From Cognatundibacterium squillarum (lineage in GTDB: Bacteria > Pseudomonadota > Gammaproteobacteria > Burkholderiales > Burkholderiaceae_D), in NCBI RefSeq assembly GCF_014652435.1, contig NZ_BMYU01000002.1:186001-250000 (forward strand): a DNA stretch of 64,000 bases. Reading direction: 5' to 3'. This document shows positions 7,326 to 30,348 of this stretch, piece after piece. The translations under genes and the position numbers were made by a program. The notes beneath the pieces are model-generated. The model made no database searches. It saw only the letters and a list, made by a program, of their open reading frames with translations, and was not told the DNA's origin. Position 1 is the first letter of the stretch, and each line of letters opens with the position of its first letter.

Positions 7326-7811
7326 GTGTCTCAATCTCATCAGCGCCGTCGTAGAGTCAGTGCGGCGTTACCTTTAATGCTGGCGGGCAGCACATTGCTG
7401 GTTGCCTGCAGTTCCGATACGTCGCCGGATTCGCAAACTGAGCGCCTTCCGGAAACGCTGCACGCCATTCGTGACGAATACACTTCCTTAGAAGACTGCC
7501 AGAAAGACTGGGGCGACAAAGCCTGCGAAACACCGGTCAGCAGCCAGATCACCGGCAGTCTGGATCAGAGTGCCAGCACAACTGCGCAGTCGCTGAATTC
7601 CGGTCATTCCACCTATGTGGGTCACGGCGGTTACTGGGGTCCTTACTACGTTGCCGGTGGGCGTGAGCGAGCGCAGGCTGATTTCGGTGTCCGTCATGCG
7701 GAGCCAAGCCGCGCAGTGGCACAGCGCAGCGGCGTCGTACGCTCCGGCTCGGTCTCCGGTGTCAGCCGTGGCGGTTTCGGCGGATCTGCACACGGTTCAG
7801 GAGGTGGTTAA
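7326..7811 (+). CDS. DUF1190 (YgiB/YjfM-like) lipoprotein
   Basis: A 161-residue protein starting at a GTG preceded by GGAG. The N-terminus is a lipoprotein signal with lipobox LVAC (Cys about residue 28), so it is probably anchored in an envelope membrane. The segment RDEYTSLEDCQKDWGDKAC is the recognisable DUF1190 core of YgiB and YjfM. The C-terminal third is Gly/Ser-rich low complexity (SRGGFGGSAHGSGGG). The stop codon overlaps the next start (TAATG), so translation is coupled to the ATP-grasp gene, as in ygiB-ygiC of enterobacteria. The family is uncharacterised in detail. A role as structural partner or substrate of the neighbouring amidoligase is inference. Confidence 0.82.
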   Translation: MSQSHQRRRRVSAALPLMLAGSTLLVACSSDTSPDSQTERLPETLHAIRDEYTSLEDCQKDWGDKACETPVSSQITGSLDQSASTTAQSLNSGHSTYVGHGGYWGPYYVAGGRERAQADFGVRHAEPSRAVAQRSGVVRSGSVSGVSRGGFGGSAHGSGGG

Positions 7812-8944
7812 TGGAACGCATACAACTGAAACCGCGCCAGGGCTGGCAGCAGCAGTTCGAGCAACTGGGCTTCACCTATCACTCCATTGATGATCTTTAC
7901 TGGGACGAACGCTACGCCTATCGTTTTACATCGGACCAGATCGATCATCTTGAAAGCGTGACAGAAGAATTGCATCAGATGGCGTTGCAGGCGGTCGGGC
8001 AGGTTGTGCGTGAAGGCAGTTATGAAAAATTCGCGATTCCGGAACCATTCTGGAAAAAGATTGAAGACAGCTGGCTGGCCGGTGAATTTTCACTGTATGG
8101 CCGCTTTGATCTGAGCTGGAACGGCAGCGGCGAACCGAAGTTACTCGAATATAACGCTGACACACCAACCGGTCTGGTGGAATCCAGCGTGGCGCAATGG
8201 TACTGGCTGCAGGATGTGTTTCCCCAGCACGATCAGTTCAACTCGCTGCATGAAAAACTGATCGCGCAGTGGCAGAAAATATCGGCCGGAAAACCGGTGC
8301 ATTTTGCCGGAATCAGCGCCAGCGAAGAAGACTGGGGAAATCTGAGCTATCTGCGCGATACCGCGATGCAGGCCGGTTTGCGTACCGTGCAGCTGGATAT
8401 GGCGGATATCGGACTGAATGCTGATACAGCGACATTCGTTGATCAGGACAATCAGCCCATTCAGCGTTTATTTAAATTGTATCCGTGGGAATGGATGTGC
8501 CGCGAAGGTTTCGGCCCTGCCCTGTTGCAGACCAAAATGCAGTGTATCGAACCCGCCTGGAAAATGCTGTTATCGAATAAAGCGATACTGCCGCTGCTGT
8601 GGGAGATGTTCCCGAATCATCCTAATCTTCTCGCCGCAAGTTTTGATCAGTGGCGCATCAGTGGCGATTATGTGAAGAAACCGCTGTATTCACGCGAAGG
8701 CGACAACATCAGCCTGTATCAGGGCAGCCAGATCCTGCGTACGGAAGGTCAGTACGGCGCGGAAGGCTATGTATATCAGCAGCTTGCCCCTTTACCGTTT
8801 TATGATGACGGCATTACACCGGCCTTTGCCTGTATCGGTTCGTGGATTGTCGGTGATCAGGCCGCCGGTATCGGCATACGTGAAGACGCAACCCTGATTA
8901 CCAAAGACACCAGCCGGTTTATTCCTCACTTTTTTACTGAATGA
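7811..8944 (+). CDS. Glutathionylspermidine synthase-like ATP-grasp ligase (YgiC/YjfC family)
   Basis: A 377-residue protein of the ATP-grasp domain found in the synthetase half of glutathionylspermidine synthase, here without the amidase domain, as in YgiC and YjfC. Visible family features are FDLSWNGSGEPKLLEYNADTPTGLVESS (substrate and Mg/ATP region, about residues 98-125), the KLYPWEWM motif near 222, VKKPLYSREGDNI around 286 and the terminal GIGIREDATLITKD. Such enzymes are predicted to form an amide or peptide bond using ATP, but the true substrate of the stand-alone family is not established. The gene overlaps the DUF1190 gene by one base and is followed 10 bases later by a DUF350 gene, the same trio seen in yjf operons. 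Confidence 0.88.
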   Translation: MERIQLKPRQGWQQQFEQLGFTYHSIDDLYWDERYAYRFTSDQIDHLESVTEELHQMALQAVGQVVREGSYEKFAIPEPFWKKIEDSWLAGEFSLYGRFDLSWNGSGEPKLLEYNADTPTGLVESSVAQWYWLQDVFPQHDQFNSLHEKLIAQWQKISAGKPVHFAGISASEEDWGNLSYLRDTAMQAGLRTVQLDMADIGLNADTATFVDQDNQPIQRLFKLYPWEWMCREGFGPALLQTKMQCIEPAWKMLLSNKAILPLLWEMFPNHPNLLAASFDQWRISGDYVKKPLYSREGDNISLYQGSQILRTEGQYGAEGYVYQQLAPLPFYDDGITPAFACIGSWIVGDQAAGIGIREDATLITKDTSRFIPHFFTE

Positions 8945-8954
8945 GACTGAAGCT

Positions 8955-9362
8955 ATGATCGCCTCTTCGTTTATCCACGGTTTTCCGCCCTTCCTGACGC
9001 ACTTTGCCGCCGCCGTGGTGCTGATATTTTTATTTATTGTGATCTACGTGCGCATCACACCTTACCGCGAAATTGCACTGATACGCGACGGTAACAGCGC
9101 TGCTGCGATCAGTTTGTCGGGGGCGCTGCTCGGATACAGCATTGCACTGGCATCCGCGATCGCCAACAGCGTTGCATTTGCCGACATGTTGCTGTGGGGC
9201 GGCATTGCGCTGGCGGTTCAGTTGCTTGCCTACCTGATTACTCGCCTGTTGTTACCGGAACTGGTCCGCGATATTCCGCAAAACCGCACCGCCAGCGGTA
9301 TTTTCCTCGCCGCACTCAGTCTGGCAATGGGTCTGATCAATGCTGCCTGTATGACGTATTAA
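8955..9362 (+). CDS. DUF350 (YjfL-like) inner-membrane protein
   Basis: A 135-residue protein with four predicted transmembrane helices (about 15-35, 50-72, 76-97 and 110-132). The repeated two-helix layout is typical of DUF350; the 'ALIRDGNSAAAISLSGALLGYSIALAS' segment is the family hallmark. It is third in the DUF1190/ATP-grasp/DUF350 operon and is followed by a clear terminator. In the published genome-context view of amidoligases (Iyer and colleagues), this combination was proposed to form a membrane-linked peptide-modification system. That function is inference here. Confidence 0.82.
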   Translation: MIASSFIHGFPPFLTHFAAAVVLIFLFIVIYVRITPYREIALIRDGNSAAAISLSGALLGYSIALASAIANSVAFADMLLWGGIALAVQLLAYLITRLLLPELVRDIPQNRTASGIFLAALSLAMGLINAACMTY

Positions 9363-9380
9363 CAAAGCTGACTCCGAAAC

Positions 9381-9410
9381 GCGGACCTCCTGACGGACGT
9401 CCGCTTTTTT
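9381..9410 (+). terminator. Rho-independent terminator of the DUF1190/ATP-grasp/DUF350 operon
   Basis: Arms GCGGAC and GTCCGC (9381-9386 and 9399-9404) are followed by six T residues, 18 bases after the DUF350 stop. Confidence 0.8.
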
Positions 9411-9510
9411 CGTCTCTGATACCCGCCAATTCGTCACTGGTCTGGTTTCGCATGAATTCTGCGTTTCAAAACGTCAGACTGCGTTCACCGATCAAACTTT
9501 AAGGAGACCA

Positions 9511-10722
9511 ATGATGTTCGCACAAATCATTCAGCGCTATCAGGCATGGGACGCTCAAACAATGGCAACCCTGTCCGCGCTCAGCGAGGGTAAATCTGTA
9601 CCGGATTCATCGGCATTTCTGGCGCGCAGTCTGAGTAAACTGAGCCGGATTGAGGTGCTGCAGCTTTACCACTTTTGTCAGAAATGGCGCGGACCATTGT
9701 TGTGGAAGCGGCTCGTGCAAATGAGCTTGCTCTTTGTGCTGCTGGGTGTGGGCTTATATATGTACAAGCAAAAAGGCAGCGTGTTGGGGGCGCTGGCAAT
9801 TGGTCAGTTGCTTGGCTGGTCAGTCTCGTTTGCGGCTTTCAGTATTTGGTTTAATTACCGGCAACTGGTTACCCGTCCGCTGAAAGTGGTTGCGATGGGT
9901 GTCGGCGGCATGACGCTCGGTATTTTGTTCGCCAAGGCCGGCTTTGCACTGGCCAAAGGCCAGCCTGTAACACAGGCACTGACTGAAAACTGGGCTGAAC
10001 TCGCACAACTCAGCCTGATTGTCGGCGGCATCTATGCGCTCCTGCTCGGTGGTATCGCTGTGGTCAGGAATCAGAGCTATGAATTGCTGAATGCTCAACT
10101 GAGTTTCGACGCGGAACGTGAACGCCATGCACGTCAGCAAACTGAAACCGAACTGCGCCTGTTACGCGCGCAGATAGAACCGCATTTTCTGTTCAATACC
10201 CTCGGTGCAGTTCAGCAATTAGCTTTACACGACGGTGCCCGCGCCGCTGAACTGACCGCGAATCTGATCACTTTCCTGCGTGCCAGCCTCAGCGAAATCC
10301 GCTCGGAACAAGTCACGCTGAAAGAAGAATGTGCGCTGATACGGGCGTATCTGCATGTGATGCAAGTCAGAATGGGAGCCCGGCTGCAATTTGAGATTGA
10401 TCTTCCCGCCGCACTGGAACCGGTAAAAATCCCTTCTATGCTGATCCTGACCCTGACCGAAAATGCGATTAAACACGGCATCGAGCCATCCGTTCACCCC
10501 GGAATGATCCGTATCCGCATCGGGCAAACCGGCCAAACCATTCAGATTATGACGGAAGACAACGGTGTCGGACTGTCTGATGTCGATAGCGGCGGTACCG
10601 GATTGCAGAATACCCGAGACCGTCTGCACTTAATGTTTGGCGATGCCGCGAAACTGGATATTTATGAACGTGCCGAAGGCGGCGTTTGCGCCAGTGTCTG
10701 CATTCCTTACACCGCTGCCTGA
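9511..10722 (+). CDS. LytS-type sensor histidine kinase
   Basis: A 403-residue membrane histidine kinase. There are four hydrophobic helices between about residues 66 and 185 with no large extracytoplasmic domain, then a short coiled linker. The His_kinase domain has the phospho-acceptor motif QIEPHFLFNTL (H225). The ATPase region shows the N box (TLTENAIKHG, N318) and a G box (EDNGVGL near 349-355, GGTGLQNTRDRL near 361). This is the LytS/AlgZ family that signals to LytTR regulators, and the next gene is exactly such a regulator. The start has AAGGAG seven bases upstream; the second codon is also ATG. The stimulus is unknown. Confidence 0.92.
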   Translation: MMFAQIIQRYQAWDAQTMATLSALSEGKSVPDSSAFLARSLSKLSRIEVLQLYHFCQKWRGPLLWKRLVQMSLLFVLLGVGLYMYKQKGSVLGALAIGQLLGWSVSFAAFSIWFNYRQLVTRPLKVVAMGVGGMTLGILFAKAGFALAKGQPVTQALTENWAELAQLSLIVGGIYALLLGGIAVVRNQSYELLNAQLSFDAERERHARQQTETELRLLRAQIEPHFLFNTLGAVQQLALHDGARAAELTANLITFLRASLSEIRSEQVTLKEECALIRAYLHVMQVRMGARLQFEIDLPAALEPVKIPSMLILTLTENAIKHGIEPSVHPGMIRIRIGQTGQTIQIMTEDNGVGLSDVDSGGTGLQNTRDRLHLMFGDAAKLDIYERAEGGVCASVCIPYTAA

Positions 10723-10760
10723 ACAATCACCGTGACTCATCACAAATACACGAGACAAAC

Positions 10761-11513
10761 ATGAAACCACAAATCCTGATTGCGGAAGATGAACCCTTAA
10801 TGCGCGAACGCTTGCAAGAATTGCTGCAGCGGGTCTGGCCGCAAGCCGCCATCGTCGCCATCGCAGAAAACGGCCCCGATGCCTGGGATGCGTTTCTGGA
10901 ACATGAACCCAGCGTCGTATTTCTCGATATCCGCATGCCGGGCATGAGCGGTCTGGAGCTGGCACGTAAAATCGGTCGTCAGGCGCACGTGGTGTTTATC
11001 ACCGCCTACGATCAGTACGCCGTTGAAGCGTTTGAAGCGGGGTCCGTTGACTATCTGCTTAAACCGGTGGAAGAACAGCGCCTTGCCATAGCGGTTGAGC
11101 GGCTGAAAGATAAACTCAGTTCTGCACCACCGGATATCCAGATGCTGTTACGCAGCCTGCAAAGCGCCGCTGCACCGGCACCAGCTGCGCCTGCGATGAA
11201 ATGGATTAAAGCCACCGTCGGCAAACAAATCCGTCTGATCAACGTCGCTGACGTACTGTTCTTTCAATCGGATACAAAATACACCCGCGTTGTGCTGGCG
11301 GACAGCGAAGCCCTGATCCGGACACCGATCAAAGAACTACTAAGCAGTCTGGACCCTGAACAATTCTGGCAGATTCACCGCTCATTTATGGTGAATGTGC
11401 ATCAGATTGCGGCAGCAGAAAGAGTGGATGCGGAGCGTATGCAGCTGATACTGAAAGACCATAGCGAGAAACTGCCGGTCAGCCGCAACTTTACCCATTT
11501 ATTCCGAGAGTAA
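10761..11513 (+). CDS. LytTR-family response regulator
   Basis: A 250-residue regulator. The receiver domain (1-115) has the acidic pair E9/D10, phospho-acceptor D56 (VVFLDIRMPG), T81 and K101. After an Ala/Pro linker, a LytTR DNA-binding domain begins around residue 147 (WIKATVGKQIRLINVADVLFFQSDTKYTRV). The ATG at 10761 gives a canonical N-terminus, whereas a longer frame from 10686 overlaps the kinase. It lies 38 bases after the kinase gene, so the two form an operon. The last 23 bases overlap the 3' end of the convergent zinc-ribbon gene. Targets are not evident in the window. Confidence 0.93.
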   Translation: MKPQILIAEDEPLMRERLQELLQRVWPQAAIVAIAENGPDAWDAFLEHEPSVVFLDIRMPGMSGLELARKIGRQAHVVFITAYDQYAVEAFEAGSVDYLLKPVEEQRLAIAVERLKDKLSSAPPDIQMLLRSLQSAAAPAPAAPAMKWIKATVGKQIRLINVADVLFFQSDTKYTRVVLADSEALIRTPIKELLSSLDPEQFWQIHRSFMVNVHQIAAAERVDAERMQLILKDHSEKLPVSRNFTHLFRE

Positions 11514-12282
11514 AAGCGCTTTTTGCGTAACGGTCTGCCTCTTGCAACAGTAAGGTCTCGTCAAGAACCGCCGCCAGATCGTAACCACCCTCGCGCAGCT
11601 CGCGCAACACCTGTTGCAGTACCGAAACGGGTAATTGCAGTGTGGCGAATGATCTGGCCAGCGCCGGATAAATATGGCGCCGCAGATAAAGATGTCGAGC
11701 CCAGCGCCGCAAACCGGTAGTCATCGCGAGTGCAGAACCTGCCATCACTGCGCCTGTCCACCAGGTCAGTGGTTCTGCATTCGCATCAATCACCGCGTAC
11801 ACTGCACCGGCAAACAGCAGACCCACACTCGCTTGCCAGCACATCGCCAGCCGCGCACGGGTACCGTTCTGATGAAGTTCCCATTTATATGACAAAGCAA
11901 CCAGCGCCGAGGAAACCAGAAAATGCCGTTCTTCTTCGGTCAGGCTGGATGGTTCAGTACGCGCCTTCCGGCTCAGTGCCAGTACGTTTGCAAAGCGCTG
12001 ATGATAGTCAGGATGCGTTTCGCGGATCAGCTGGTCCAGCGGCAATCGCTCACGGGTGAAATGCGGGTAGCTGTGTTCCTCCAGCCAGTAAGGCGTCTGA
12101 CAATGCTCACAACGCAGTTCAAAGCCGAGCAGGCGGCCATCGGTGAAATTGACATAGTTGATATGAAAAGCGGATCCCATACGGATCAGTTTGTGCGCAG
12201 TCATCTCCCTGCACACAGGACACCATTCCGCAATATACCCTCTGCCGCGCCGGGTTTGCTTATATCCCCAGACTGTCGCCAA
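11491..12282 (-). CDS. Uncharacterised zinc-ribbon membrane protein
   Basis: A 263-residue protein I cannot assign to a named family. The N-terminus carries two CxxC pairs (C21/C24 in CPVC and C58/C61 in CEHC), which look like a zinc ribbon. Two hydrophobic helices follow at about 145-166 and 172-191, with basic residues right after (RRWARHLYLRRH), then a helical C-terminal region of about 70 residues. This suggests a cytoplasmic zinc ribbon on a membrane anchor. It is convergent with the LytTR regulator and overlaps its 3' end by 23 bases, so the two transcripts would be complementary there. Upstream, on the same strand, lie a dispersed repeat and the GspF-like gene. Confidence 0.7.
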   Translation of the reverse strand: MATVWGYKQTRRGRGYIAEWCPVCREMTAHKLIRMGSAFHINYVNFTDGRLLGFELRCEHCQTPYWLEEHSYPHFTRERLPLDQLIRETHPDYHQRFANVLALSRKARTEPSSLTEEERHFLVSSALVALSYKWELHQNGTRARLAMCWQASVGLLFAGAVYAVIDANAEPLTWWTGAVMAGSALAMTTGLRRWARHLYLRRHIYPALARSFATLQLPVSVLQQVLRELREGGYDLAAVLDETLLLQEADRYAKSAFTLGING

Positions 12283-12434
12283 TTGTCGCTCCCGAAAGCT
12301 GAAACACCGGCTGTCAATGTAACCCGAAGCCCGCCAGCACGCAGTGCTTTCCTATGCAAAGCTGATATTTCTCAGAAATCCGGCAACAAAAACATCAGAT
12401 TTGTTCTGACAAACCGTCATTTTGACCAGAAATG

Positions 12435-12527
12435 CCCTGAAATGCGGTGTTCAGCACAGCGATCCGCCGGTCGTCGGCAGAAAGTCCGGGTCTCCGGAAA
12501 TGACGGATGCGGATACCTGCACAATAC
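12435..12527 (+). repeat. Dispersed intergenic repeat, copy B
   Basis: A well-conserved copy. It begins CCCTGAAATGCGGTGTTCAG, contains GTCGTCGGCAGAAAGTCCGG in the middle and ends GATGCGGATACCTGCACAAT. It lies between the zinc-ribbon gene and the GspF-like gene. Confidence 0.8.
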
Positions 12528-12547
12528 ACGATGCCGTTACTGCGTTT

Positions 12548-13528
12548 TCACCCGACTTCCGGTAAGCGCTGATGAATGCCCGGGCCAGTGGTCAGCTGGA
12601 AGAACACCCAGGCTGCCACCAGCGCATAAACGACGCGCGGCAACCAGTCGGCCAGCCTGCGCTGCGCATCGCTGAGCGCCGTCTGTTCCGCACTGGCAAC
12701 GCGCTGTAAATGCTCTGCCAGACGTCCCGCAGATTCGCCACAGTGAATCATGCCAAGGATCACATGATCACCACTGAAAAGAGAGGAAGTTCTGAGCGCG
12801 GCGGTGAAAGTCTGCCCCGCGTGTAAGGCACGTAACACCGGTGCCAGCGCCTGCTGTAACACGCCGTTGTTCACCACATTCACCGCCATCGGAAATGCTT
12901 CAAACAAAGGCACTCCCGCCTCTTCCAGCATTGCCATTGCTGACCAGAAGTCCGCGAGGCAGCGCCGGCGGTGCAGACCACCGATGACCGGTAGAGATAA
13001 GATCAGACGATCCCATACCAGTCGTTCGGGTGCCGGTTTGCTGCGGTCGAAGCGCTGCCACAACCAGCGTCCGCCCAACATCAGCGCTGCAGCACCACCG
13101 GTAACGGTCAGAATGTGGGTGAAATAGGCGGCACCCGTCAGCGTTCCGGCAAAAAGTCGCGGGATAGGCGGGATCAGCAGACTCGCGACGGCCAGCAAAG
13201 CCGGTGACATCATGCGCGACCGGATTTGCCGCCATTCCGTATCACGCCGGGTGTAATAGTCGCCGAGCTTACGAAATACCGGCGTCGGATCACCGCTGTT
13301 TTCTCCGGCTGCAATCAGCGCTGCTTCCAGCGGCGTCAGCACCCCAGCCCGCTGCCCCGCCTTCGCAATACTTTCGCCCCGCGCTACAGCCCGTTTCACC
13401 TGCGCCAGCAAAGGATCCACCCGACGCTGTATCCGCAACATTCCCCATGCTTGCGCGGGGGCGATACCCGCACCGGATAAGGTTGCAAGCTGGGTGAACA
13501 GAGTGGCGCGAAGCTGGAAAGTAAGCAT
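12548..13528 (-). CDS. GspF/PilC-like type II secretion/type IV pilus inner-membrane protein (orphan)
   Basis: A 326-residue protein with two T2SSF-type helical domains (about residues 8-105 and 190-290). The repeat signatures are 'LATLSGAGIAPAQAW...GESIAKAG...AALIAAGENSGD' and 'AMLEEAGVPLFEAF...GQTFTAAL...GMIHCGESAGRL'. Transmembrane stretches lie near 107-125, 132-150 and the C-terminus (residues 298-318). Such proteins form the inner-membrane platform of type II secretion or type IV pilus machines. At 326 residues it is shorter than typical GspF/PilC (about 400). No other secretion or pilus gene is nearby, so it may be an orphan component serving a machine encoded elsewhere. No strong ribosome binding site is visible. 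Confidence 0.85.
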   Translation of the reverse strand: MLTFQLRATLFTQLATLSGAGIAPAQAWGMLRIQRRVDPLLAQVKRAVARGESIAKAGQRAGVLTPLEAALIAAGENSGDPTPVFRKLGDYYTRRDTEWRQIRSRMMSPALLAVASLLIPPIPRLFAGTLTGAAYFTHILTVTGGAAALMLGGRWLWQRFDRSKPAPERLVWDRLILSLPVIGGLHRRRCLADFWSAMAMLEEAGVPLFEAFPMAVNVVNNGVLQQALAPVLRALHAGQTFTAALRTSSLFSGDHVILGMIHCGESAGRLAEHLQRVASAEQTALSDAQRRLADWLPRVVYALVAAWVFFQLTTGPGIHQRLPEVG

Positions 13529-13718
13529 ATCGTTAGCTATTCAATTGGCAGTTAATTTAAAAAGTGCAAAAAACAAAAATACTTTATTTCAACTATTATT
13601 CGACAATCAATATTAAATTGACATAAAATTTAACTTATATTCATTGATTTTACTGAATAAGTTACAAGTCATATCCAACTGATCATATCTTTAAACTGAC
13701 TCACTCATCACCATAACA
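13529..13718. other. AT-rich divergent promoter region
   Basis: This spacer between the GspF-like gene and the S9 peptidase gene is much richer in A and T than its surroundings. It contains a perfect TTGACA hexamer at 13618-13623, but no convincing -10 at normal spacing. No gene or repeat is visible. Confidence 0.4.
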
Positions 13719-15662
13719 ATGAAAATCAATAAGCGCCATCTGGTTCAGATCTTTTCAGCATTTGCATTTTCTCAGTTCTCTTTCGCAGCACAGGCAATCG
13801 AACAAATTCCTCTGGATGTTTTTATCAAGCCGGATACGATTTCAAAACCCTTGTTGTCTCCCGATGGTAAGCACGTCGCACTCATCCGTACTGTTAATGA
13901 CGGAGAATACCCGGTAAATCTGATCTCTGTGATCAGATTAAGCGATATGACTACGATATCTAATGTTCGCTTACCAAAATTTGAACGCCCGGGTCGCCTT
14001 GCGTGGGTCAGTGCCGACAGGCTTGCAGTAAGCAAGGCAACTGAGCGCGGACGTGGTGTCGCACCTGAATTAACCGGTGAAATTTATGCCTACGATATCG
14101 ATGGAAAACGTCAGGAGTATGTGTTTGGTTACAGAATGCGTAAAGCCTCCGTTCGTGGTTATCATCACGAAAATGATGAAGCATGGGGTTATATCAGTGG
14201 GATTCCCAGCAATAGTAACGGCGATATTTTCGTCGTAAGCAGCGGTTGGGAAAATAAAAAACAAACCCTCACACGCATCAATACATACACGACCAGCCGA
14301 AAAACTTACCATATCACGACAAATGCAGACGTAAATTATTTTTTTGATAATGATGGTGAAGCGGCATTCGCTTACACATTTGATGATAAAAAGCAGAAAT
14401 TATACGTAATGCCTTTTGATAAAAAAGACGAATGGCAAAATTACGAGGTGCCGGTAAAAATTTCAGATCTCAGTTTCATCACAAAAACCAGTGACGGTTA
14501 TTTCGCAAGGATTTCTGAAAATGGAGGTCCTTATAAAATAGTGAAAATTTCAAAGGATTTTAAAGAGTTTACGACAGTCGCCGAAGGAGACTCTGACCTA
14601 TTTGCAAATGTTGATCCGGTCACTGGTAAAGTTTATTCCTATTACAATTCAACCGGTGTACAAAAAGTCACTTTCAATGATTTTATGGTTGACGAAGCTG
14701 CGACCTATGATGCACTGATCAAACAATTCCCCGGTCAGATGGTTAAGGTCGTTTCTACCAGCAAAGATAATCAAAAATGGATGGTTTTCGTCTATAGCGA
14801 TAAAGATCCCGGCTTCTACTTTGTATTCGACAGAACAACCGGGAAATCCGGTGCATCGTTCTACGCGGACGAAAACTTCGATCCGGCTAAAATGGCCGCC
14901 AGACAGCCCATCCAGTTCACAAACCGGGATGGCGTGAAGATTGAGGGATATTTAACGACGCATCCTGCCGAGAGCGGCAAAAACCGCCCGCTGGTGGTGC
15001 TTCCGCATGGCGGACCATTTGGTGTCCGTGACAATTGGGCGTATGACTATGAAGCGCAATTACTTGCCAACCGCGGTTACGCAGTACTGCAGGTCAATTT
15101 TCGGGGATCAGGTGGGCGCGGTGAAAAGTTTATTGAATCCGGTCATAAAAACTGGGATAAGAAGCTGATTAACGATCTGGTTGACGGCATTCAATATGCG
15201 GGCAGTTTGAAAGGGATTGATAACAAACGGACCTGTGCATTCGGTGGAAGTTATGGCGCTTATGCCAGCATGATGATTGCTGTCAAAGAACCAGGTCTGC
15301 TGAAATGTGTGGCAGGCATGTCGGGAGTATACGATCTTGTTTCACTTTATGAAAACGAAAATCCCAAGAGCGCAAGCTACTTCAGTCGCACAATGGGCAG
15401 CGACAAAGAAGATCTGAAAAACGCTTCACCAATAACCCATGTGGCGAAGTTTAATATCCCGATGTTAATTGCACACGGCGGCGCAGACCATATCACGCCC
15501 CCAAAACCTGCGATTGCATTTCACGAAGCGCTGAATGCGGCCGGGAAAAAACATGAGTGGATTTACCACGCTGATGAAGTACATGGTTTTTATGATTTTA
15601 AAAACAATAAAGACTTTTATCAGCGTTTGCTGAAATTCCTCGAGGAAAATCTGAACCCGTAA
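13719..15662 (+). CDS. Secreted S9-family (prolyl oligopeptidase-like) peptidase
   Basis: A 647-residue protein with a signal peptide (first 26 residues, cut after AQA). A beta-propeller-like region (about 30-400) is followed by an alpha/beta hydrolase domain with the full serine triad: S511 in GGSYGAYAS, D590 in HGGADHITPP and H622 in DEVHGFY. The oxyanion-side motif HGGP (residues 430-433) is present. It is most like the acylaminoacyl-peptidase/dipeptidyl-peptidase branch and probably degrades peptides in the periplasm. The first two thirds of the gene are clearly more AT-rich and Lys/Asn-rich than its neighbours, suggesting acquisition by transfer. It ends at a strong bidirectional terminator shared with nadV. 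Confidence 0.9.
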   Translation: MKINKRHLVQIFSAFAFSQFSFAAQAIEQIPLDVFIKPDTISKPLLSPDGKHVALIRTVNDGEYPVNLISVIRLSDMTTISNVRLPKFERPGRLAWVSADRLAVSKATERGRGVAPELTGEIYAYDIDGKRQEYVFGYRMRKASVRGYHHENDEAWGYISGIPSNSNGDIFVVSSGWENKKQTLTRINTYTTSRKTYHITTNADVNYFFDNDGEAAFAYTFDDKKQKLYVMPFDKKDEWQNYEVPVKISDLSFITKTSDGYFARISENGGPYKIVKISKDFKEFTTVAEGDSDLFANVDPVTGKVYSYYNSTGVQKVTFNDFMVDEAATYDALIKQFPGQMVKVVSTSKDNQKWMVFVYSDKDPGFYFVFDRTTGKSGASFYADENFDPAKMAARQPIQFTNRDGVKIEGYLTTHPAESGKNRPLVVLPHGGPFGVRDNWAYDYEAQLLANRGYAVLQVNFRGSGGRGEKFIESGHKNWDKKLINDLVDGIQYAGSLKGIDNKRTCAFGGSYGAYASMMIAVKEPGLLKCVAGMSGVYDLVSLYENENPKSASYFSRTMGSDKEDLKNASPITHVAKFNIPMLIAHGGADHITPPKPAIAFHEALNAAGKKHEWIYHADEVHGFYDFKNNKDFYQRLLKFLEENLNP

Positions 15663-15700
15663 AATGTAACAAGCGGCAAAGATACAGACGTGAGATAACT

Positions 15701-15735
15701 AAAAAAGCGGAACGTTTTGACGTTCCGCTTTTTTT
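15701..15735. terminator. Bidirectional rho-independent terminator
   Basis: Perfect arms GCGGAACG and CGTTCCGC around TTTTGA are flanked by A6 on the left and T7 on the right. It serves the S9 peptidase gene and the convergent nadV gene. Confidence 0.9.
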
Positions 15736-15740
15736 CATGA

Positions 15741-17435
15741 TTACCAGTCTTTCAGAAGACATCTGTCCGCTTGCCACGACGCATGCAAACGCTCACGAAT
15801 TTCTGCAATCGTCTGGGTTTTAAGCAATTTTCCGTTACGGAATACCGGTTCCAGCGCGCCGCCTGCAAATTGTTCTTCACTCTGTTGTTCGTGCAAAACA
15901 TAATGACCGTCTTCATAGTCGACGCGAATTAAGCCACGCGCAGATTTTTTGGTGCCGTCATCGGTTGCCGGATCTTTGTAAATTTCAACTGCGGTATCAC
16001 CGACTTCAGCGTAGATCGCTTTCATGGCGAAGCCGAAGGTGTCGCGGGTGTTCATGCCGTAGACAAAGCTGCCGATACCAAACACCACATTACCGGATGC
16101 AAAGCCTTTGGCTTCCAGACGCAGCAAAATGTCGCGGGCACGTTCCAGCGTGATCGAATCGCCGTAGATCAGACCGACATGGCTGTCCAGCAAGCGATAA
16201 CCTTTGGCAGTTTTTGTGCCGCCGAAGGTATCCCACAGACATTCCACCGCGCCTTTGCGCTCTGCATCGGTAATCTGCTGACCAGTTTTCAGCGTGTACA
16301 GGCCGTCCGCATTGCGTTGCGGCACGCCGCCCCTGCTTTCAAGCTCGCTTGCATCGTATCCGGTCAGAATCCGTACCGGATCACCGGAATCCGGACGGAA
16401 CACCACTTTTGCATTTCCGAGTGCATCCGGTTTGCGCTGCATAATATCTTGACGCAATGCCGGTGCAATCACCGTCATCACATTCCAGAAATCAAAGGTA
16501 TCGCTGACCAGAGAAACCATGCCAGACGGATAATCTTCCGTCACAAAACTGCGTATGACTTCCAGTTCCGCGGCACGCCGTAAGCTATTTTCATCGGCGT
16601 GCTGATATGCGGGCTGCGTGCGTAACTGTTGCAGCGTCAGCAGAATACGTAAGGCCATCACGCTGTGTTCCGACGCAGGAATCGAACCGCCGAGCAATTC
16701 TGTATCCGCATTACCACCGTAATAATCTTCCAGATAATCCAGCGCCGGAATCGTATCTGTACCCCAGAACGATAATAAGTGCGCAGCACCGCAGCGCATT
16801 GCAGAATGCACTCCGCTCATACCGCGCATAGAAAAATCATGCCCCTGCCAGTTCACAAATTCGGTATCGGTACCGGTGCGGTCGGCAAAATGCAGTAACA
16901 GTTTTCTGAATTCAAATGCCAGTGTCGCAACGGTGGCAGGCTTCCACATCTCGCAGCTGAACAGGGTTTCGATATATGTCGCTATCCACGGAAAATCCGG
17001 ATGCGTATTCATAAAAATGACCGGCGGCACTTTGATATCCACCCGTGCACCTTCAGGAATCGAGCGGATTTCCAGCGGCAGGTAGCCCAGTGCATGCAAG
17101 GCTTCCAGTCGGCGGACCGGCACTGCACCGGCGCCTAAGGCCGTATCCATACGGCGACGGTATTTACGCACCGCCTGATCAACCGGCAAATCAAAGAATT
17201 CACGCTGAAATAAATCAATTAAGAATTCCTGTATAAAACCCTGCAAACCAAACCATACAACTTTGTGATCAAACAATTGCGGCAGTACCGGTGCATGTTT
17301 CGCGGAGCGTGGCGTGAAATTCGCAACGAGGCGCGTAGTTTGCTGCGGATACATCGCAGGGTGGCCGGTTTTATAAAAATCTGCCAGATGAAACGGTTGT
17401 AAGCCATTCAGAACGTGGTTTTCTTTGCTTTGCAT
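15741..17435 (-). CDS. nadV: Nicotinamide phosphoribosyltransferase
   Basis: A 564-residue enzyme that makes nicotinamide mononucleotide from nicotinamide and PRPP, the first step of the non-deamidating NAD salvage route. It matches the NAMPT/NadV family along its length: N-terminal DFYKTGHPAMYP, NWQGHDFSMRGM, the catalytic-histidine segment GGSIPASEHSVM (H257), the phosphate-binding VVFRPDSGDPV, and GDSITLERA with FGIGSFVYGMNTRDT. The length is slightly above the usual 460-500. AGGAG lies about 7 bases upstream. It is second in an operon with a PRPP synthetase gene that supplies its co-substrate, and is probably repressed by the divergent NrtR. Confidence 0.96.
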   Translation of the reverse strand: MQSKENHVLNGLQPFHLADFYKTGHPAMYPQQTTRLVANFTPRSAKHAPVLPQLFDHKVVWFGLQGFIQEFLIDLFQREFFDLPVDQAVRKYRRRMDTALGAGAVPVRRLEALHALGYLPLEIRSIPEGARVDIKVPPVIFMNTHPDFPWIATYIETLFSCEMWKPATVATLAFEFRKLLLHFADRTGTDTEFVNWQGHDFSMRGMSGVHSAMRCGAAHLLSFWGTDTIPALDYLEDYYGGNADTELLGGSIPASEHSVMALRILLTLQQLRTQPAYQHADENSLRRAAELEVIRSFVTEDYPSGMVSLVSDTFDFWNVMTVIAPALRQDIMQRKPDALGNAKVVFRPDSGDPVRILTGYDASELESRGGVPQRNADGLYTLKTGQQITDAERKGAVECLWDTFGGTKTAKGYRLLDSHVGLIYGDSITLERARDILLRLEAKGFASGNVVFGIGSFVYGMNTRDTFGFAMKAIYAEVGDTAVEIYKDPATDDGTKKSARGLIRVDYEDGHYVLHEQQSEEQFAGGALEPVFRNGKLLKTQTIAEIRERLHASWQADRCLLKDW

Positions 17436-17489
17436 GATTTTCTCCTGAGTACTGCACTGTCTTTGCCGGCGAAACTTTGAGCCGGATAC

Positions 17490-24399: not shown

Positions 24400-25473
24400 A
24401 TGAGCGGACCAACCACAGCTTTATTCCTTTCGTCTGATCCTCTCAGTATTTTGCTGAGTGCGGCACTGATACGCGCACAAGCCGCCATCGTGAATGCGCA
24501 TCTGACAGCAGAACAGTTAGCGGACAAAAACGAAGAGACCCTGCAGAACAGAATTAGCACGTTCAGCGATGAATCAACTTCTTACGAGCATCAGTTACAG
24601 CAAGCCTTACTTCAGGCGGAAAATAACTACGCTGAACTGATCGCACTGGCAAACCAGATAGGTTGTGAAGCACAAATCGGTTGCGCACGCCCAGTACGCC
24701 CCGAAACCGAAGATGCAGAGGCGCTGACCACTTATGTACAGGCACTGCAGGCACTGAATCAGCAATGTAAGCCTGTGCTGCTGGCAGAAGCGGCAAGGCG
24801 GGCCGAACAACTGCATGAAGGAACAGAAACTACGCTGGCCAGCACTGCACAGCAGCAAATCCCGCGCCGCATCGCTGAGCGCTTATTGCAGCGTATCGCA
24901 CATCTGGGCGATATTCCTGAACCTTTACAGCAACTGGCGCAGCAACTGAGTCTGGCATTGCCGGGGCCGCATGCGGACATGCTGGCAACAGAATTGCGCC
25001 TGCAGGTACAGCAATTGCTGGATGCAGAATTGCAGCGTCAGGTGCAGGAAGCGCAGGCCATCATCATCGAACAGAGTCTGAAAGATCTTGGCTATCAGGT
25101 CGAAGAAATCCGCGAAACTCTTTTTGTAGAAGGCGGTGTGGTGCATTTCCGTCGCAGTGACTGGGGTGCTTACATGGTGCGCCTGCGCATAGACCCTAAA
25201 CAGAAAACGGCGAATTTCAATGTCATCCGGGCCGTTGCCGAAGGCGAGAATGAACGTAGTGTGATGGATCACATTGCTGAAGACCGCTGGTGCAGCGAGT
25301 TCCCTGCTTTACTGAAAGCACTGGAAGCACGCGGATTATCACTGCAAGTCACGCGCCGGCTGGAAGCCGGTGAATTGCCGGTACAGCTGGTACTGGCATC
25401 GAAGCTGCCGCAGTTCCTTGAAGAAGAACAGCGTGTACAACAGCAACAACTCCGACAACGACCATTGCAATGA
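24400..25473 (+). CDS. Uncharacterised helical protein, first gene of the AAA+/radical SAM/kinase operon
   Basis: A 357-residue protein that I do not recognise. Residues about 20-230 are mostly helical, Gln/Glu/Ala/Leu-rich and likely to form coiled coils (YEHQLQQALLQAENNYAELIALANQ, QLAQQLSLALPGPHADMLATELRLQVQQLLDAELQRQVQEAQ). Residues about 230-330 look like a compact alpha/beta domain (LKDLGYQVEEIRETLFVEGGVVHFRRSDWGAYMVRLRIDP and following), and the tail is Gln-rich. No signal peptide or membrane helix is seen. The stop overlaps the ATG of the AAA+ gene (ATGA), so the two are translationally coupled and probably act in one complex. A role as adaptor or substrate receptor for the ATPase is inference. 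Confidence 0.75.
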   Translation: MSGPTTALFLSSDPLSILLSAALIRAQAAIVNAHLTAEQLADKNEETLQNRISTFSDESTSYEHQLQQALLQAENNYAELIALANQIGCEAQIGCARPVRPETEDAEALTTYVQALQALNQQCKPVLLAEAARRAEQLHEGTETTLASTAQQQIPRRIAERLLQRIAHLGDIPEPLQQLAQQLSLALPGPHADMLATELRLQVQQLLDAELQRQVQEAQAIIIEQSLKDLGYQVEEIRETLFVEGGVVHFRRSDWGAYMVRLRIDPKQKTANFNVIRAVAEGENERSVMDHIAEDRWCSEFPALLKALEARGLSLQVTRRLEAGELPVQLVLASKLPQFLEEEQRVQQQQLRQRPLQ

Positions 25474-27308
25474 CCATTTCCTCGCCGCGCTGGTTGCAGG
25501 ACTTACAACGCCTGCTGCCGATACGTTCTCAGTTTGTGCTGTCCGGTAATATTCGCGACAGCTTTATTTCACCGGTAGCTGCCGGAAATGCGCTGGTGCC
25601 ACTGACTCGCTGTCTGTGGGAATCGGTGCGCCAGCAGGGATTTCAGTTTTTACTGATTTTTGACCCTGCCGATGGCTTACGCGTCTATCCTGACGAGCCT
25701 GCCGCACGCGATCTGGCGACACGTCTGTTTGATTTAAAACTGTGCGACGGACTGCAAATGATCAGTCTGGAAAGCCTGAGCAAGCTGATGCGCAAGCTCA
25801 GCCAGGAACGTGAAGCCCGCTGCGCGCTGATCGTTGATTTCGCCTCACGTCTGGCACGCCACCATGAACAACTGACCGAAGCAGAACACCGCTTTTTTGT
25901 GGCGGCAGAAAAAATTTCGCTGCAGGCCAGTCCGCTGGTACCGCAAAACACGGTTGGCAAACCTGTGTACAACCCGGTGATCTGGCTACTGAACCGCGCG
26001 CAGGATTTACCGTCATGGTTCACGCTCGACAGCGAACGCGTGGCTTCGCTGGTAATCGCCAGACCTGATTTCGAGACCCGTCGCGCCGCCGCAGGTTTGC
26101 TGGCGCCTTTGTTCAACGGTTTCTCCAGCGCAACACCGGCTGCCCGCGAGCAGTTTTTACGCGGTTTCACCGAGGGAACCGAAGGCATGAGCCTGACGGC
26201 CCTGTCCGACATTACAGAACTGGCAGACCGGCAACAACTCGATATGTATGCGATTGACGATGCTGTTCGTTGCTACAAAGTCGGAGCACTGGATAATCCG
26301 TGGCGCAAAGACTATCTGCGCGACAAAATCCGGCAAGCGCAAGGCTTTATCGAAGAACGCGTCAAAGGCCAGAAACCTGCCGTTGTCAAAACACTGGATA
26401 TTCTGAAACGTTCTGCGATGGGACTGACCGGCGCCCATGCACGTTCCGGTGCAAACCGTCCGCGCGGTGTTTTGTTTTTTGCCGGGCCTACCGGTGTCGG
26501 TAAAACCGAGCTGGCTAAAACCCTGACGCAGCTGGTGTTTGGTGACGAACGTGCCTATCTGCGTTTTGACATGAGTGAATTCGCCGAAGAACACACCAGT
26601 GCACGCCTGCTCGGTGCACCACCGGGCTATGTTGGTTTTGATGCCGGTGGTGAACTGACTAATGCAGTACGCCAGAAGCCTTTTTCTGTGGTGTTGTTTG
26701 ACGAGATTGAAAAAGCACACCCGCGTATTCTCGATAAATTTCTGCAAATTCTGGAAGATGGCCGTCTGACCGATGGCCGCGGCGATACTGCATATTTTTC
26801 AGAAGCCATTCTGGTATTTACTTCCAACCTCGGTATATTTACCGAAGATCAGTACGGCCATCGTCAGCAAAATGTGCAACCCGGTGATCCGTATGAAATG
26901 GTGGAATCCAAAGTCCGCAATGCGATCAGCGACTATTTCAAATTCCGCCTGTCCCGTCCGGAACTGCTGAACCGCATCGGCGACAACATCGTAGTGTTTA
27001 ACTTTATTCAGGCCGAAGTCGCCACCCAGATTTTTGATGGCATGCTGCGGAATGTCGCCCGCAGGTTACATGAAGAATTGCGTCTGCAATTATCGATGCC
27101 GCAGGCAGTACGCGATGAACTTTTGTTGCGCTGCACCCGTGACCTGAGCAACGGTGGTCGCGGTATCGGTAATGCTCTGGAATCTTGTCTGATTAATCCA
27201 TTGTCGCGCGCCTTGTTTGAAACCGATCTGGAAGGCAAACAAAAGCTGATCATTACCGGCATTCAGGAACAGGATAAAGTGATTTCCCTGAGCGTGCAGG
27301 CAACATGA
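25470..27308 (+). CDS. ClpB/ClpA-like AAA+ ATPase with a degenerate first domain
   Basis: A 612-residue protein. Residues about 320-610 form a complete Clp-type AAA+ module: Walker A GPTGVGKT (339-346), substrate pore loop GYVG (387-390), Walker B VVLFDEIEKAH (D411/E412), sensor-1 FTSN (N453), and a D2-small/ClpB_D2-like C-terminus with the 'SNGGRGIGNALESC' sensor-2 arginine segment. The N-terminal half (about 15-215) resembles an AAA fold with a Walker-B-like LIVDFASRL but no Walker A. The pore loop suggests threading or remodelling of protein substrates. I do not see the IGF/L loop needed for ClpP. It overlaps both neighbours by four bases. Confidence 0.88.
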   Translation: MTISSPRWLQDLQRLLPIRSQFVLSGNIRDSFISPVAAGNALVPLTRCLWESVRQQGFQFLLIFDPADGLRVYPDEPAARDLATRLFDLKLCDGLQMISLESLSKLMRKLSQEREARCALIVDFASRLARHHEQLTEAEHRFFVAAEKISLQASPLVPQNTVGKPVYNPVIWLLNRAQDLPSWFTLDSERVASLVIARPDFETRRAAAGLLAPLFNGFSSATPAAREQFLRGFTEGTEGMSLTALSDITELADRQQLDMYAIDDAVRCYKVGALDNPWRKDYLRDKIRQAQGFIEERVKGQKPAVVKTLDILKRSAMGLTGAHARSGANRPRGVLFFAGPTGVGKTELAKTLTQLVFGDERAYLRFDMSEFAEEHTSARLLGAPPGYVGFDAGGELTNAVRQKPFSVVLFDEIEKAHPRILDKFLQILEDGRLTDGRGDTAYFSEAILVFTSNLGIFTEDQYGHRQQNVQPGDPYEMVESKVRNAISDYFKFRLSRPELLNRIGDNIVVFNFIQAEVATQIFDGMLRNVARRLHEELRLQLSMPQAVRDELLLRCTRDLSNGGRGIGNALESCLINPLSRALFETDLEGKQKLIITGIQEQDKVISLSVQAT

Positions 27309-27958
27309 AAATTGCCGTCAACAAAGCCCACTATCCGGTCACGGTACTTGGCCCGGGAAAACGTATCGGGATCTGGCTGCAGGGCTGCCGCATACAATGC
27401 AAAGGCTGCGTTTCGCAGGACACGTGGACCAGCGATGCCGGACATGAAATGACTGTCGCAAGGCTGATGAGCTGGTGCCGTGACGTGGCTAAGGATGGTG
27501 TCGAGGGCATCACGATTTCCGGCGGAGAACCTTTTGATCAGCCGGAAGCACTGAATGCCTTACTGGATGCAATTCACTTCTGGCGTGAGGAAGCCGGTAT
27601 CACGATGGATATTCTGTGCTACAGCGGCTACCCGCTGACCACTCTGCAGAGAAAATACCGTAAGCTGCTCAGTAAAATCGATGCGCTGATACCGGAACCC
27701 TATATTGATGCGCAGCCACCGGAACTGGCCTGGCGCGGTTCCGCCAATCAGCCGCTGGTAATACTGACACCACTGGCGCAACAAAAGTACGCTGCGTGGC
27801 AGGATAGCCCGTTAGAAAATCAGGAAAAACGCATACAGACTATGACCGATGGCAAACACATCTGGTACATTGGTATTCCGGCACGCGGCGATATGCAGGC
27901 GCTGGAGTCGCTGGCAGAATCGCGGGGTTTGCGTTTTGAACAGGTAAGCTGGAGATAA
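27305..27958 (+). CDS. NrdG-like radical SAM protein (4Fe-4S activase family)
   Basis: A 217-residue protein with the radical SAM cluster motif C28-x3-C32-x2-C35 (CRIQCKGC) and the SAM-binding GGEP (73-76, in ITISGGEPFDQPEA). Overall size and layout are those of the pyruvate-formate-lyase/anaerobic ribonucleotide reductase activases. No glycyl-radical enzyme (NrdD or PflB) is present; instead the gene is fused by ATGA overlap to a Clp-like ATPase gene and followed after two bases by a kinase gene. It may therefore modify a component of this operon rather than activate ribonucleotide reductase. The substrate is unknown. Confidence 0.9.
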   Translation: MKIAVNKAHYPVTVLGPGKRIGIWLQGCRIQCKGCVSQDTWTSDAGHEMTVARLMSWCRDVAKDGVEGITISGGEPFDQPEALNALLDAIHFWREEAGITMDILCYSGYPLTTLQRKYRKLLSKIDALIPEPYIDAQPPELAWRGSANQPLVILTPLAQQKYAAWQDSPLENQEKRIQTMTDGKHIWYIGIPARGDMQALESLAESRGLRFEQVSWR

Positions 27959-27960
27959 GT

Positions 27961-30348
27961 TTGACTCAGGATTACATACGCGTTTGTCCCGGCTGTTTCA
28001 CTGAAAACAGCCACGACACCCTGCGCTGCCAGTGCGGTATGCTGCTGACCGGTGTCGACCTGACAGTGCGCCCGCAAACGCCGTCGGCTGCAGCGTCCGA
28101 CCGCAGCGTACCGGACATTACCCCGGAAAAAAATCAACTGTCTGCGGATACGATTGAGTGTCCGCACGAAGACTGTGCGCAGCAAAACCCTTCTGATGCC
28201 GAGCTTTGCCTGTATTGCAACCGGCCATTGTCAGCACCTGTCAAGGAAGACGAGCGTAAGGATACCGCTATACACGGCGGTTTATGGAATCTGCCTGCCG
28301 GCCTCAGGGATAAATACACACTGATTGCACCTTTACCCGCCTCAGGCAGTGAGGCGGACTTACTGCTGTTGCGCGGCGCAGACCACCAGCGCTACGTCCT
28401 GAAGCTGTACCGCCACGGCATCAGCCTCAAAACCGAAATCGCACAGCGACTGGAAAAAGTTCCGGTAGAACACAGGGTTCATGTGCTGGAAACCGGAACA
28501 CTATCCGGCCGGCAGTATGAACTGATGGAGTATTGCGAGCTCGGCTCTCTGCGCCAGTACCTTCAGCAGGAAAAACCGGACGCGGTACAGCTGCGGGCAA
28601 TTTTGCTGGAGCTGGACAGCGCTGTCAGCAGCGTGCACCAGGCAGGTCTGCTGCACCGTGATCTGAAACCTGAAAACATCCTGATCCGTACAAAAGAGCC
28701 GCTGGATTTAATCCTGACCGATTTCGGTATCGCTTCCGCACTGGATGCAACGCAAAAACTGACAGGCACGGCCCGTACCCTGCATTACGCTGCACCGGAA
28801 ACACTGTCCGGTGTGATCAGCGCTAAAGCCGATTACTGGGCGCTGGGGATGATACTGCTAGAAGCACTGACCGGCCGGCATCCGTTCAATCAGTTTTCTG
28901 AAGCGGTGATTCTGCATCAACTGGCTACCCGTGAAATTGACCTGAACAGCGTCAGCGATAAAAGCTGGAAAAAACTCTTGCGCGGCCTGCTGCTGCGCGA
29001 TCCGGCAAAACGCTGGGCGTCAGCAGAAATACTGCGCTGGCTGGCGAATGATATTACCCTGCCCGAACCGGTTGAGACATCGGGTACAGCGGGATTCCGC
29101 GAACCGTTTCACATTGGTGCAGATATCTGCCATACCAAGGAGCAACTGGGCGTTGCACTGGCAAGAAACTGGCCTCTGGCCAGCAACGATCTGGCAAACG
29201 GCTTATTGCTGCAGTGGTTCCGGGACGTGCAGAAAGATCATAATGCCGTTCGTATCCTGCTCGATAACCGGCATGACCGACAGTTATCGGTTGATGTTCA
29301 GTTGCTGCAACTGATTTTATATTTATCGCCGGGATTACCACCGGTATGGCGCGGGGACTCGGTTGAATTGTCCGCTGTGTTGCTGAACGCAAACCGGTCA
29401 CTGAAAGGTGAAAAAGATGCAGCAAGCTGGCTGCACGCGCTGTATCACCATAAAGTGCTCGATTTGTACGGACAGCAAGGCGATGCCGCCTCTGCCGATC
29501 TGGCGCAGCGCTGGTACCGCAGCGCTGATGAATTTGTTCAGACCTGGCACAGCTTCCGCGAAAAAATTCAGAAGCGTATTCACAGTACGTCCGCTGGCTA
29601 TGTGAATGTCGATAAGCTGATGTTCAGCGACAGCATTCCGGTCGGCCCCGACTTGCCGCATACCCATGCAAAATTGCTGGCCTGTGCATACGATGCACGC
29701 TGGGCCGAACGCTTGCGTAAGCGTTTGCAAACTAGTTACGCTGGCCTCGCTGCATACTGCCCGTGGCTGCAAGAACTCGGCGATCTGAGCAGCATGTCCG
29801 CCGCCGGATTACTCGTGATGGATGCACTGATTCCCGAAGCGGAAAAGGCTGTGGAGCAGCAAAAGCAGGCTGAAGCCTGGCAAGCCCAGGAAGCGAGCAT
29901 CGGCCTTGGCGACATATCGGAGCGTTACTACGGCACCGTGCTGGCGCTGAAATCCGCTGCGAAAGCCTGGCTGTTCTTTGAAGAGGCGGATGCTAACCTG
30001 CAGCGTGAAATCGATGGGCTGTTTGGTTTGCTGACCGAAATTCGTGAAGCGCCGCATCAGTCTGCTGACTGGCTGAATCTGAAAAAGAATGCATCCAAGA
30101 CCGAACGCATCTTGCTGCGCATGTCGCCGGTTGCCAACAATATTTCCGAACGAATGACAGAAAACGCCGGATGGCTCGGACCACAGTCAATTATCGCGGG
30201 GATGCTGCTGGCGCTGGTGATTCCTATGCTGTTCAACCGTAACCTGCTGCCATTCGTGATGCTGTTCTTGTTGTGCATTGTCGTCTGGCGCCTGCTGCCA
30301 GTGTATTTGCGCATACGGCAATTACGGGAACTTGCGGCCTTGCTGTAG
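27961..30348 (+). CDS. Membrane-tailed serine/threonine protein kinase with two zinc ribbons
   Basis: A 795-residue protein starting at TTG, with GGAG six bases upstream. The N-terminus has two zinc ribbons (C9/C12/C23/C25 and C67/C72/C83/C86). A Hanks-type kinase domain spans about 118-385: ATP lysine K148 (VLKLY), catalytic loop HRDLKPEN (232-239), DFG (254-256), APE (278-280) and DYWALG. The glycine-rich loop is degenerate (ASGSEADLLL) but the catalytic residues are intact. A long helical region (400-735) follows, then two hydrophobic helices (about 743-759 and 762-780) and a basic tail. It should be anchored in the inner membrane with the kinase in the cytoplasm. It is the last gene of the four-gene operon. 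Confidence 0.92.
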   Translation: MTQDYIRVCPGCFTENSHDTLRCQCGMLLTGVDLTVRPQTPSAAASDRSVPDITPEKNQLSADTIECPHEDCAQQNPSDAELCLYCNRPLSAPVKEDERKDTAIHGGLWNLPAGLRDKYTLIAPLPASGSEADLLLLRGADHQRYVLKLYRHGISLKTEIAQRLEKVPVEHRVHVLETGTLSGRQYELMEYCELGSLRQYLQQEKPDAVQLRAILLELDSAVSSVHQAGLLHRDLKPENILIRTKEPLDLILTDFGIASALDATQKLTGTARTLHYAAPETLSGVISAKADYWALGMILLEALTGRHPFNQFSEAVILHQLATREIDLNSVSDKSWKKLLRGLLLRDPAKRWASAEILRWLANDITLPEPVETSGTAGFREPFHIGADICHTKEQLGVALARNWPLASNDLANGLLLQWFRDVQKDHNAVRILLDNRHDRQLSVDVQLLQLILYLSPGLPPVWRGDSVELSAVLLNANRSLKGEKDAASWLHALYHHKVLDLYGQQGDAASADLAQRWYRSADEFVQTWHSFREKIQKRIHSTSAGYVNVDKLMFSDSIPVGPDLPHTHAKLLACAYDARWAERLRKRLQTSYAGLAAYCPWLQELGDLSSMSAAGLLVMDALIPEAEKAVEQQKQAEAWQAQEASIGLGDISERYYGTVLALKSAAKAWLFFEEADANLQREIDGLFGLLTEIREAPHQSADWLNLKKNASKTERILLRMSPVANNISERMTENAGWLGPQSIIAGMLLALVIPMLFNRNLLPFVMLFLLCIVVWRLLPVYLRIRQLRELAALL

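Follow-up and report, generated by a model that had tools for sequence, protein, structure and literature searches.

A recurrent Hsp100, radical SAM and kinase quartet

We analysed a 64,000-nucleotide stretch of Cognatundibacterium squillarum (contig NZ_BMYU01000002.1, positions 186,001 to 250,000; this whole stretch is called the window) and found that four abutting genes in it, here named A to D, form a quartet that recurs complete at 15 loci. The quartet joins a coiled-coil protein with a conserved N-terminus, an Hsp100 unfoldase with one apparently dead and one intact ATPase ring, a radical S-adenosylmethionine (SAM) protein resembling NrdG but with no detectable glycyl-radical partner, and a kinase with a predicted membrane hairpin. 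We propose, at about an even chance, that it works as a phosphorylation-controlled Hsp100/radical SAM switch: C would license A or B, B would act on A via a tag, and the output would serve biological conflict.

24400..25473, + strand: gene A, coiled-coil protein of an unnamed 'MSGP' family (open reading frame (ORF) of 357 amino acids (aa))
25470..27308, + strand: gene B, Hsp100 (ClpA/B/C-like) unfoldase (ORF, 612 aa; domain matches)
27305..27958, + strand: gene C, NrdG-like radical SAM protein (ORF, 217 aa; domain matches, alignment)
27961..30348, + strand: gene D, Ser/Thr kinase with zinc ribbons and membrane hairpin (ORF, 795 aa, TTG start)

A first-pass annotation had placed four rightward genes at 24400-30348, with two ATGA overlaps and a 2-base gap, and the ORF calls agree: A and B overlap at 25470-25473, B and C at 27305-27308, and C and D are spaced by 2 bases (27959-27960), with a GGAG preceding the TTG start of D. 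Its descriptions of the parts (a Clp-like ATPase with a GYVG loop, an NrdG-like protein, a zinc-ribbon kinase with a membrane tail) also proved accurate when set against Pfam, NCBIfam and motifs. All four genes look to be under constraint, with ratios of non-synonymous to synonymous change (pN/pS) of 0.20-0.51 against three congeners, values that are rough because synonymous sites are near saturation.

The annotation had made its reading depend on the quartet being found in other genomes, and it is, distant bacteria included. The 15 complete loci show three gene orders: A-B-C-D at seven (the window, five congeners and G775, from another family of the same taxonomic order), B-C-D-A at seven (Caballeronia, B. 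territorii, Rhizobium, Bradyrhizobium, Sphingomonas, G367 and G671) and C-D-B-A at one (G199). Altogether B was found at 31 loci; C lies in the stretch read at 23 of them, and these B+C loci hold a kinase in 19 cases and a profile-defined A in 17. The loci come from several searches that each kept a limited number of matches, some made with profiles built from earlier loci, and from the best 80 of the 589 stretches matching in one B search nine were used (L018-L026) and 71 set aside (L027-L097), their matches starting at residue 243 or later, i.e. covering only the part shared with ClpB (the second ring, D2). The counts are therefore descriptive and not those of a random sample. That the genes are chance neighbours, or share nothing but expression, we find barely credible: some relatives do lack one part, but the order is the same at seven loci of the taxonomic order, and the genes stay together at 15 loci with differing flanks (those of five congener-level loci, the window, L192, L194, L195 and L196, fall into four sets). 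The analysis thus bears out the recurrence of the quartet, an operon that acts as one unit, a membrane-linked kinase and an unfoldase, the last three as the annotation had it.

The distribution of the system is patchy. Within the genus it is present in 6 of 25 genomes, in identical gene order. Across the phylum, at least 9 of the 398 genomes searched have a match to B at E<=1e-90; in the phylum and class searches three candidates per genome were scored for B, which makes the counts lower bounds. Two of these nine matches cover D2 only, and in two more (G370 and G528) the contig, 8-10 kb long, carries no C. The other five are full-length, with E below 1e-200, and each is accompanied within about 5 kb by C and by a kinase that is either whole or in pieces. 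Among these five are the matches of the window and of G367, both of which belong to the profile or to its source genome. A tree of 21 B proteins separates two starred groups. One unites the window's B with those of Gallionella, G199, Gaiellasilicea and Streptomyces, the Streptomyces branch being long and unsure; the other contains the eight systems of a helicase clade. The grouping of actinobacterial with proteobacterial B proteins fits horizontal transfer.

Searches of mobile elements gave mixed results. Viral contigs held no match to gene A, and two to the Gallionella gene B, in the D2 part only. The radical SAM profile matched 46 viral loci (best identity 40%); as copies of the system these were rejected, being taken collectively for phage-type NrdG, with the match mostly over the NrdG core. 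Gene C is matched by 2096 phage records, which among the ten matches listed are mostly annotated as NrdG or hypothetical. Plasmid searches with B and C found loci, five of which were examined; the plasmid search with A gave no match and was too weak, because Caballeronia and Rhizobium plasmids carry divergent copies. A decayed copy of the system was also seen in G068, from the genus of G199, as fragments of A and C without B (L105, 10053-10809).

Gene B as an Hsp100 motor with a degenerate first ring

Gene B matches AAA_2 (1.9e-47) and ClpB_D2-small in Pfam and is closest to the D2 of ClpB (TIGR03346, 3.8e-76), with PDB matches to ClpB as well.

25479..26309, + strand: degenerate first AAA ring (D1) of gene B, with no Walker A and xG[NP]xxD where Walker A is expected
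26484..26510, + strand: intact D2 Walker A of gene B, GPTGVGKTE (GPTG[VT]GKTE in 16/16)
26625..26636, + strand: pore loop GYVG of gene B, residues 386-389 (GYVG in 15/16, GYLG in one)

The first ring is without Walker A in all 16 aligned proteins, and two active ATPase rings, as in ClpB, ClpA and ClpC, are not present; D2 is intact, with Walker A and B, the GYVG pore loop, sensor 1, the arginine finger and sensor 2. Judged by these residues, gene B encodes an Hsp100 motor in which the first ring is dead and the second intact. Like ClpB, ClpA and ClpC it has a two-ring layout, an intact D2 ATPase and an aromatic pore loop, but it differs from them in the missing D1 Walker A, in having neither an N-domain nor a middle domain of the ClpB type, in its operon partners, and in the absence of the ClpP-docking motif [LIV]G[FLIMV] from residues 455-495 (16/16, by a motif test only). 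The dead ring and the lack of a recognisable protease-docking motif would point to remodelling or release of a client rather than to proteolysis.

These data bear on another reading, in which the quartet is a stress or protein-quality-control module: a membrane kinase would sense envelope or redox stress and switch on a ClpB-like disaggregase, with C as a redox or oxygen sensor. The closeness of B to the D2 of ClpB is what this predicts, but the N-domain, the middle domain and the active D1, which all have roles in ClpB, are missing. We return to this module below. As a side observation, two B genes, in genomes of different families (L102, 4266-6224; L104, 7794-9674) are each broken by one in-frame stop near the D2 Walker B region.

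Gene C, an NrdG-like protein without a detectable glycyl-radical partner

Gene C matches Fer4_12 in Pfam (2.3e-30), and its best NCBIfam match is NrdG, the anaerobic ribonucleotide reductase activase (TIGR02491, 1.3e-26), with which it has the core, the CxxxCxxC motif and GG[ED]P in common. All 15 aligned proteins retain Cys28, Cys32, Cys35 and GG[ED]P.

27386..27409, + strand: CxxxCxxC cluster motif of gene C (C28, C32, C35), invariant in 15/15

Unlike NrdG, however, C scores below the family cut-off (93.4 against 126.1 bits) and carries a C-terminal extension of about 60 residues, in which Gly190 is invariant among the 15. The window's genome, which is 98.66% complete, contains no match to NRDD (PF13597) or Gly_radical (PF01228), while control genomes were positive, and no second protein of C's radical SAM profile. 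By these profiles C has no detectable classical glycyl-radical partner. An ordinary reductase activase that sits in the operon by happenstance would account for the best NCBIfam match, but not for the low score, the missing NrdD, the extension or the proximity of C to B at 23 of 31 B loci, and we consider it highly improbable.

Radical SAM enzymes are common modifiers of peptides. The quartet could then be a peptide-maturation cassette, akin to those for ribosomally synthesised and post-translationally modified peptides, with C modifying a peptide, B and A handling the precursor and D regulating; this strikes us as improbable. There is a parallel in the simpler ternary FtsH systems, whose radical SAM enzyme likely modifies a peptide effector, according to the accessible part of PMC7159879. 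But the four genes abut, so a peptide gene would not fit between them (no systematic search for short ORFs outside the quartet was made), and C is a small NrdG-type protein.

NrdG-like proteins were also seen without B on two plasmids, in Calothrix beside Hsp70, TPR and AAA ATPase genes (L004, 7917-8567) and in Paenarthrobacter beside an AAA ATPase and DUF2997 (L006, 3185-3808). These cases perhaps belong to a wider AAA and radical SAM theme.

Gene A and its N-terminal motif

Gene A matches no Pfam family above cut-off, and NCBIfam, PADLOC and PHROG listed no match for it. Its family was assembled by following the operon across genomes, and the window protein is 16-39% identical to the eight other first-aligned members.

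24400..24411, + strand: N-terminal M-S-G-P motif of gene A ([M/V]SGP start in 17/17 profile-defined members)
25036..25404, + strand: C-terminal domain of gene A, residues about 213-335 (many invariant columns; predicted local distance difference test (pLDDT) score mostly 66-85)

In the family alignment many of the invariant columns fall in two places of the C-terminal domain, LGYxV and the WC/L/G region. The predicted structure is weak (mean pLDDT 61.4) and mostly helical; its helices are long, and structure comparison gave no trustworthy match for the alpha/beta part at the C-terminus. M-S-G starts are also enriched beside B genes without a profile-defined A (5 of 90, against 5 of 867 background frames; p 0.0011 in a test devised after the motif had been seen), for instance MSGPK in Aristaeella, MSGE in G117 and MSGTPK in G370. 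Since G117 and G370 have no C within the stretch read, the tag appears to be linked more closely to B than to C.

Gene D, an active-type kinase

Gene D matches Pkinase in Pfam (1.8e-34), and its intact Lys, HRD and DFG mark it as a putative Ser/Thr kinase of the active type.

27985..28035, + strand: first zinc ribbon of gene D (C9...C25; C4 cysteines)
28159..28218, + strand: second zinc ribbon of gene D (C67...C86; C4 cysteines)
28312..29085, + strand: protein kinase domain of gene D, edges approximate (Lys, HRD, DFG present)
30166..30309, + strand: hydrophobic segments forming the predicted membrane hairpin of gene D (Kyte-Doolittle 19-residue mean up to 2.41)

The hydrophobic stretch lies at about residues 736-786. 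Homologs in the five congeners and G775 keep both zinc ribbons, the Lys, HRD and DFG residues and the hairpin (hydropathy 1.97-2.61).

The core is found with swapped partners

In the helicase clade, sister to the window's systems, the kinase region opens a polypeptide of about 2,100 aa, and some relatives thereby have helicase-nuclease parts where the window's kinase has its membrane tail. In Caballeronia the fusion combines, in Pfam, Pkinase, DUF4011, an AAA_11/12 superfamily 1 (SF1) helicase and an MTES_1575 (Vsr-like) nuclease, and matches the PADLOC models PDC-S37 (2.2e-149), Hhe (2.5e-67) and MkoA, as does the Rhizobium fusion. The remaining fusions were recognised from their length and kinase match, and the one in G551 is broken. 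All seven unbroken fusions retain the HRD Asp and have lost two other residues (catalytic Lys to Thr, DFG Asp to Gly or Ser), so that their kinase is, as read from these residues, a pseudokinase.

Other relatives show further combinations. An intact kinase is fused to WD40 repeats in G199; ankyrin repeats stand beside B in Gallionella; FHA occurs with a zinc ribbon in Gaiellasilicea (with a PP2C partner), in G376 (with a kinase) and in Aristaeella (with a DUF4011 protein matching PDC-S37 at 7.9e-265, and annotated kinases and phosphatase). The congener G747 has a second, divergent B+C locus (L198, G747:C11:602000-619500, 7523-17476) beside a Mokosh-like SF1 helicase, which matches MkoA (1.5e-99), and a PIN protein. 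Three side observations concern these loci. The WD40 repeats of G199 (L098, 8842-11841) score very highly against many propeller models, as if near-identical, and a recent expansion of them is possible; a gene near L198 resembles a serine resolvase by eye; and an SMC/AAA_15-type ATPase and an RNase_H-helicase protein adjoin the Sphingomonas and Bradyrhizobium systems (L026, 5138-8596; L021, 400-3807).

Relation to known systems

Type VI secretion control brings together a kinase, a phosphatase, an FHA protein and a Clp-type ATPase (PpkA, PppA, Fha and ClpV), as do the Gaiellasilicea and Aristaeella relatives, but the radical SAM and MSGP proteins are extra in the quartet family. Mokosh is a kinase-linked SF1 helicase with a phospholipase D (PLD) nuclease, and Hhe was reportedly described by Gao et al. 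in 2020; we know of no Hsp100, radical SAM or MSGP component in Hhe, PDC-S37 or Mokosh. The helicases or helicase-nucleases of the quartet's relatives match these models, whereas the window copy is without a helicase. None of its four proteins matches the DUF4011-SF1 helicase-Vsr nuclease protein that marks Hhe and PDC-S37; Pfam finds no helicase in the quartet, and in D the match to MkoA is confined to the kinase part, which sets the quartet apart from Mokosh. The first-pass annotation knew of no named system with this exact quartet, and we likewise found none of this make-up in the accessible parts of the open-licence PMC literature, a scope that leaves most subscription journals and bioRxiv preprints outside.

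A relative is nevertheless probably in print. We provisionally take the genes flanking the cDHS1 hotspot of P. aeruginosa to be those numbered PA2725 and PA2727, and PA2725 to be a Clp-type chaperone beside that flank. The cDHS1 right flank comprises a small hypothetical gene, a DUF4011 gene and a radical SAM gene, a pairing of DUF4011 with radical SAM that also occurs in the helicase clade; the part of the source available treats them as flanking core genes of a defence hotspot and not as a system (PMC10250203). PA2727 has been called a histidine kinase (PMC4918941) and DNA-helicase-like (PMC3697988) in excerpts of two other papers, and the two labels would fit a kinase-helicase fusion. The core locus is probably a relative of the quartet that is already published, although not as a system (PMC10250203). 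Nucleoside triphosphate (NTP)-dependent conflict systems (GAP1-N2 and others), as far as the accessible text goes, also have zinc-ribbon kinases, PP2C and effectors swapped around a core, but that core is a GTPase or MoxR-vWA instead of an Hsp100 and a radical SAM protein (PMC7159879).

A possible phosphorylation-controlled switch

The sequences themselves show the parts, their recurrence, which catalytic residues are kept or lost and how partner domains are swapped; from these we infer how the quartet might work. As a membrane-anchored zinc-ribbon kinase, D would sense or pass on a trigger and set the state of B by phosphorylation. B, with one working ATPase ring atop a dead one, would remodel or free its client without feeding a protease. 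A may be that client, or an adaptor, its coiled-coil protein being recognised via the N-terminal Ser-Gly-Pro tag. C would not serve ribonucleotide reductase and could modify A or B, or place a radical on it, arming or licensing it. The whole would be a horizontally moving four-part signalling machine, and its output would most likely be defensive, because the same core goes with helicase-nuclease proteins in the sister systems.

Several observations weigh against this switch. There is no nuclease or other obvious effector in the window quartet, and no DUF4011 anywhere in the window's genome. The flanks of the window and its congeners look like ordinary genes by eye; among 60 flanking proteins PADLOC matched 8 families by one member each, which does not exceed the 52 families of a kinase-rich control set. 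Eight of the 31 B loci have neither C nor A in the stretch read (three, L103, L123 and L124, lie on short or cut contigs), and B may work without C. At the Gallionella locus A, B and C are present, and its 21.8 kb contain no kinase. Finally, MSG-starting proteins also lie beside B genes that have no C, and they weaken the idea that the tag is the substrate of C.

The ordinary flanks and the missing effector are also what the stress or quality-control module would lead one to expect, but it sits badly with the patchy distribution of the system and with the nuclease and helicase partners of relatives, and we rate it as possible though unlikely. As for the phosphorylation-controlled switch, the putative conflict role that the first-pass annotation had suggested gains from the relatives with helicase-nuclease parts. 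Tentatively, and with clearly less confidence than in the switch itself, we suggest a new class of immune switches, in which an NrdG-type enzyme freed from its reductase would arm, by a radical-made modification, either an Hsp100 motor or the SGP-tagged client of that motor, an active membrane-bound kinase, or else a pseudokinase fused to a helicase-nuclease, would time the release of the effector, and P. aeruginosa would carry a core version beside its main defence hotspot.

If true, unfolding motor, radical modification and phosphorylation would be united in one switch, and radical SAM 'activases' without a glycyl-radical partner would have a role. The signalling clade and the nuclease-armed pseudokinase clade would then offer a comparison of how a signalling core gains a killing output, and the P. 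aeruginosa relative, if confirmed, would bring the system within reach of knockouts in a laboratory strain.

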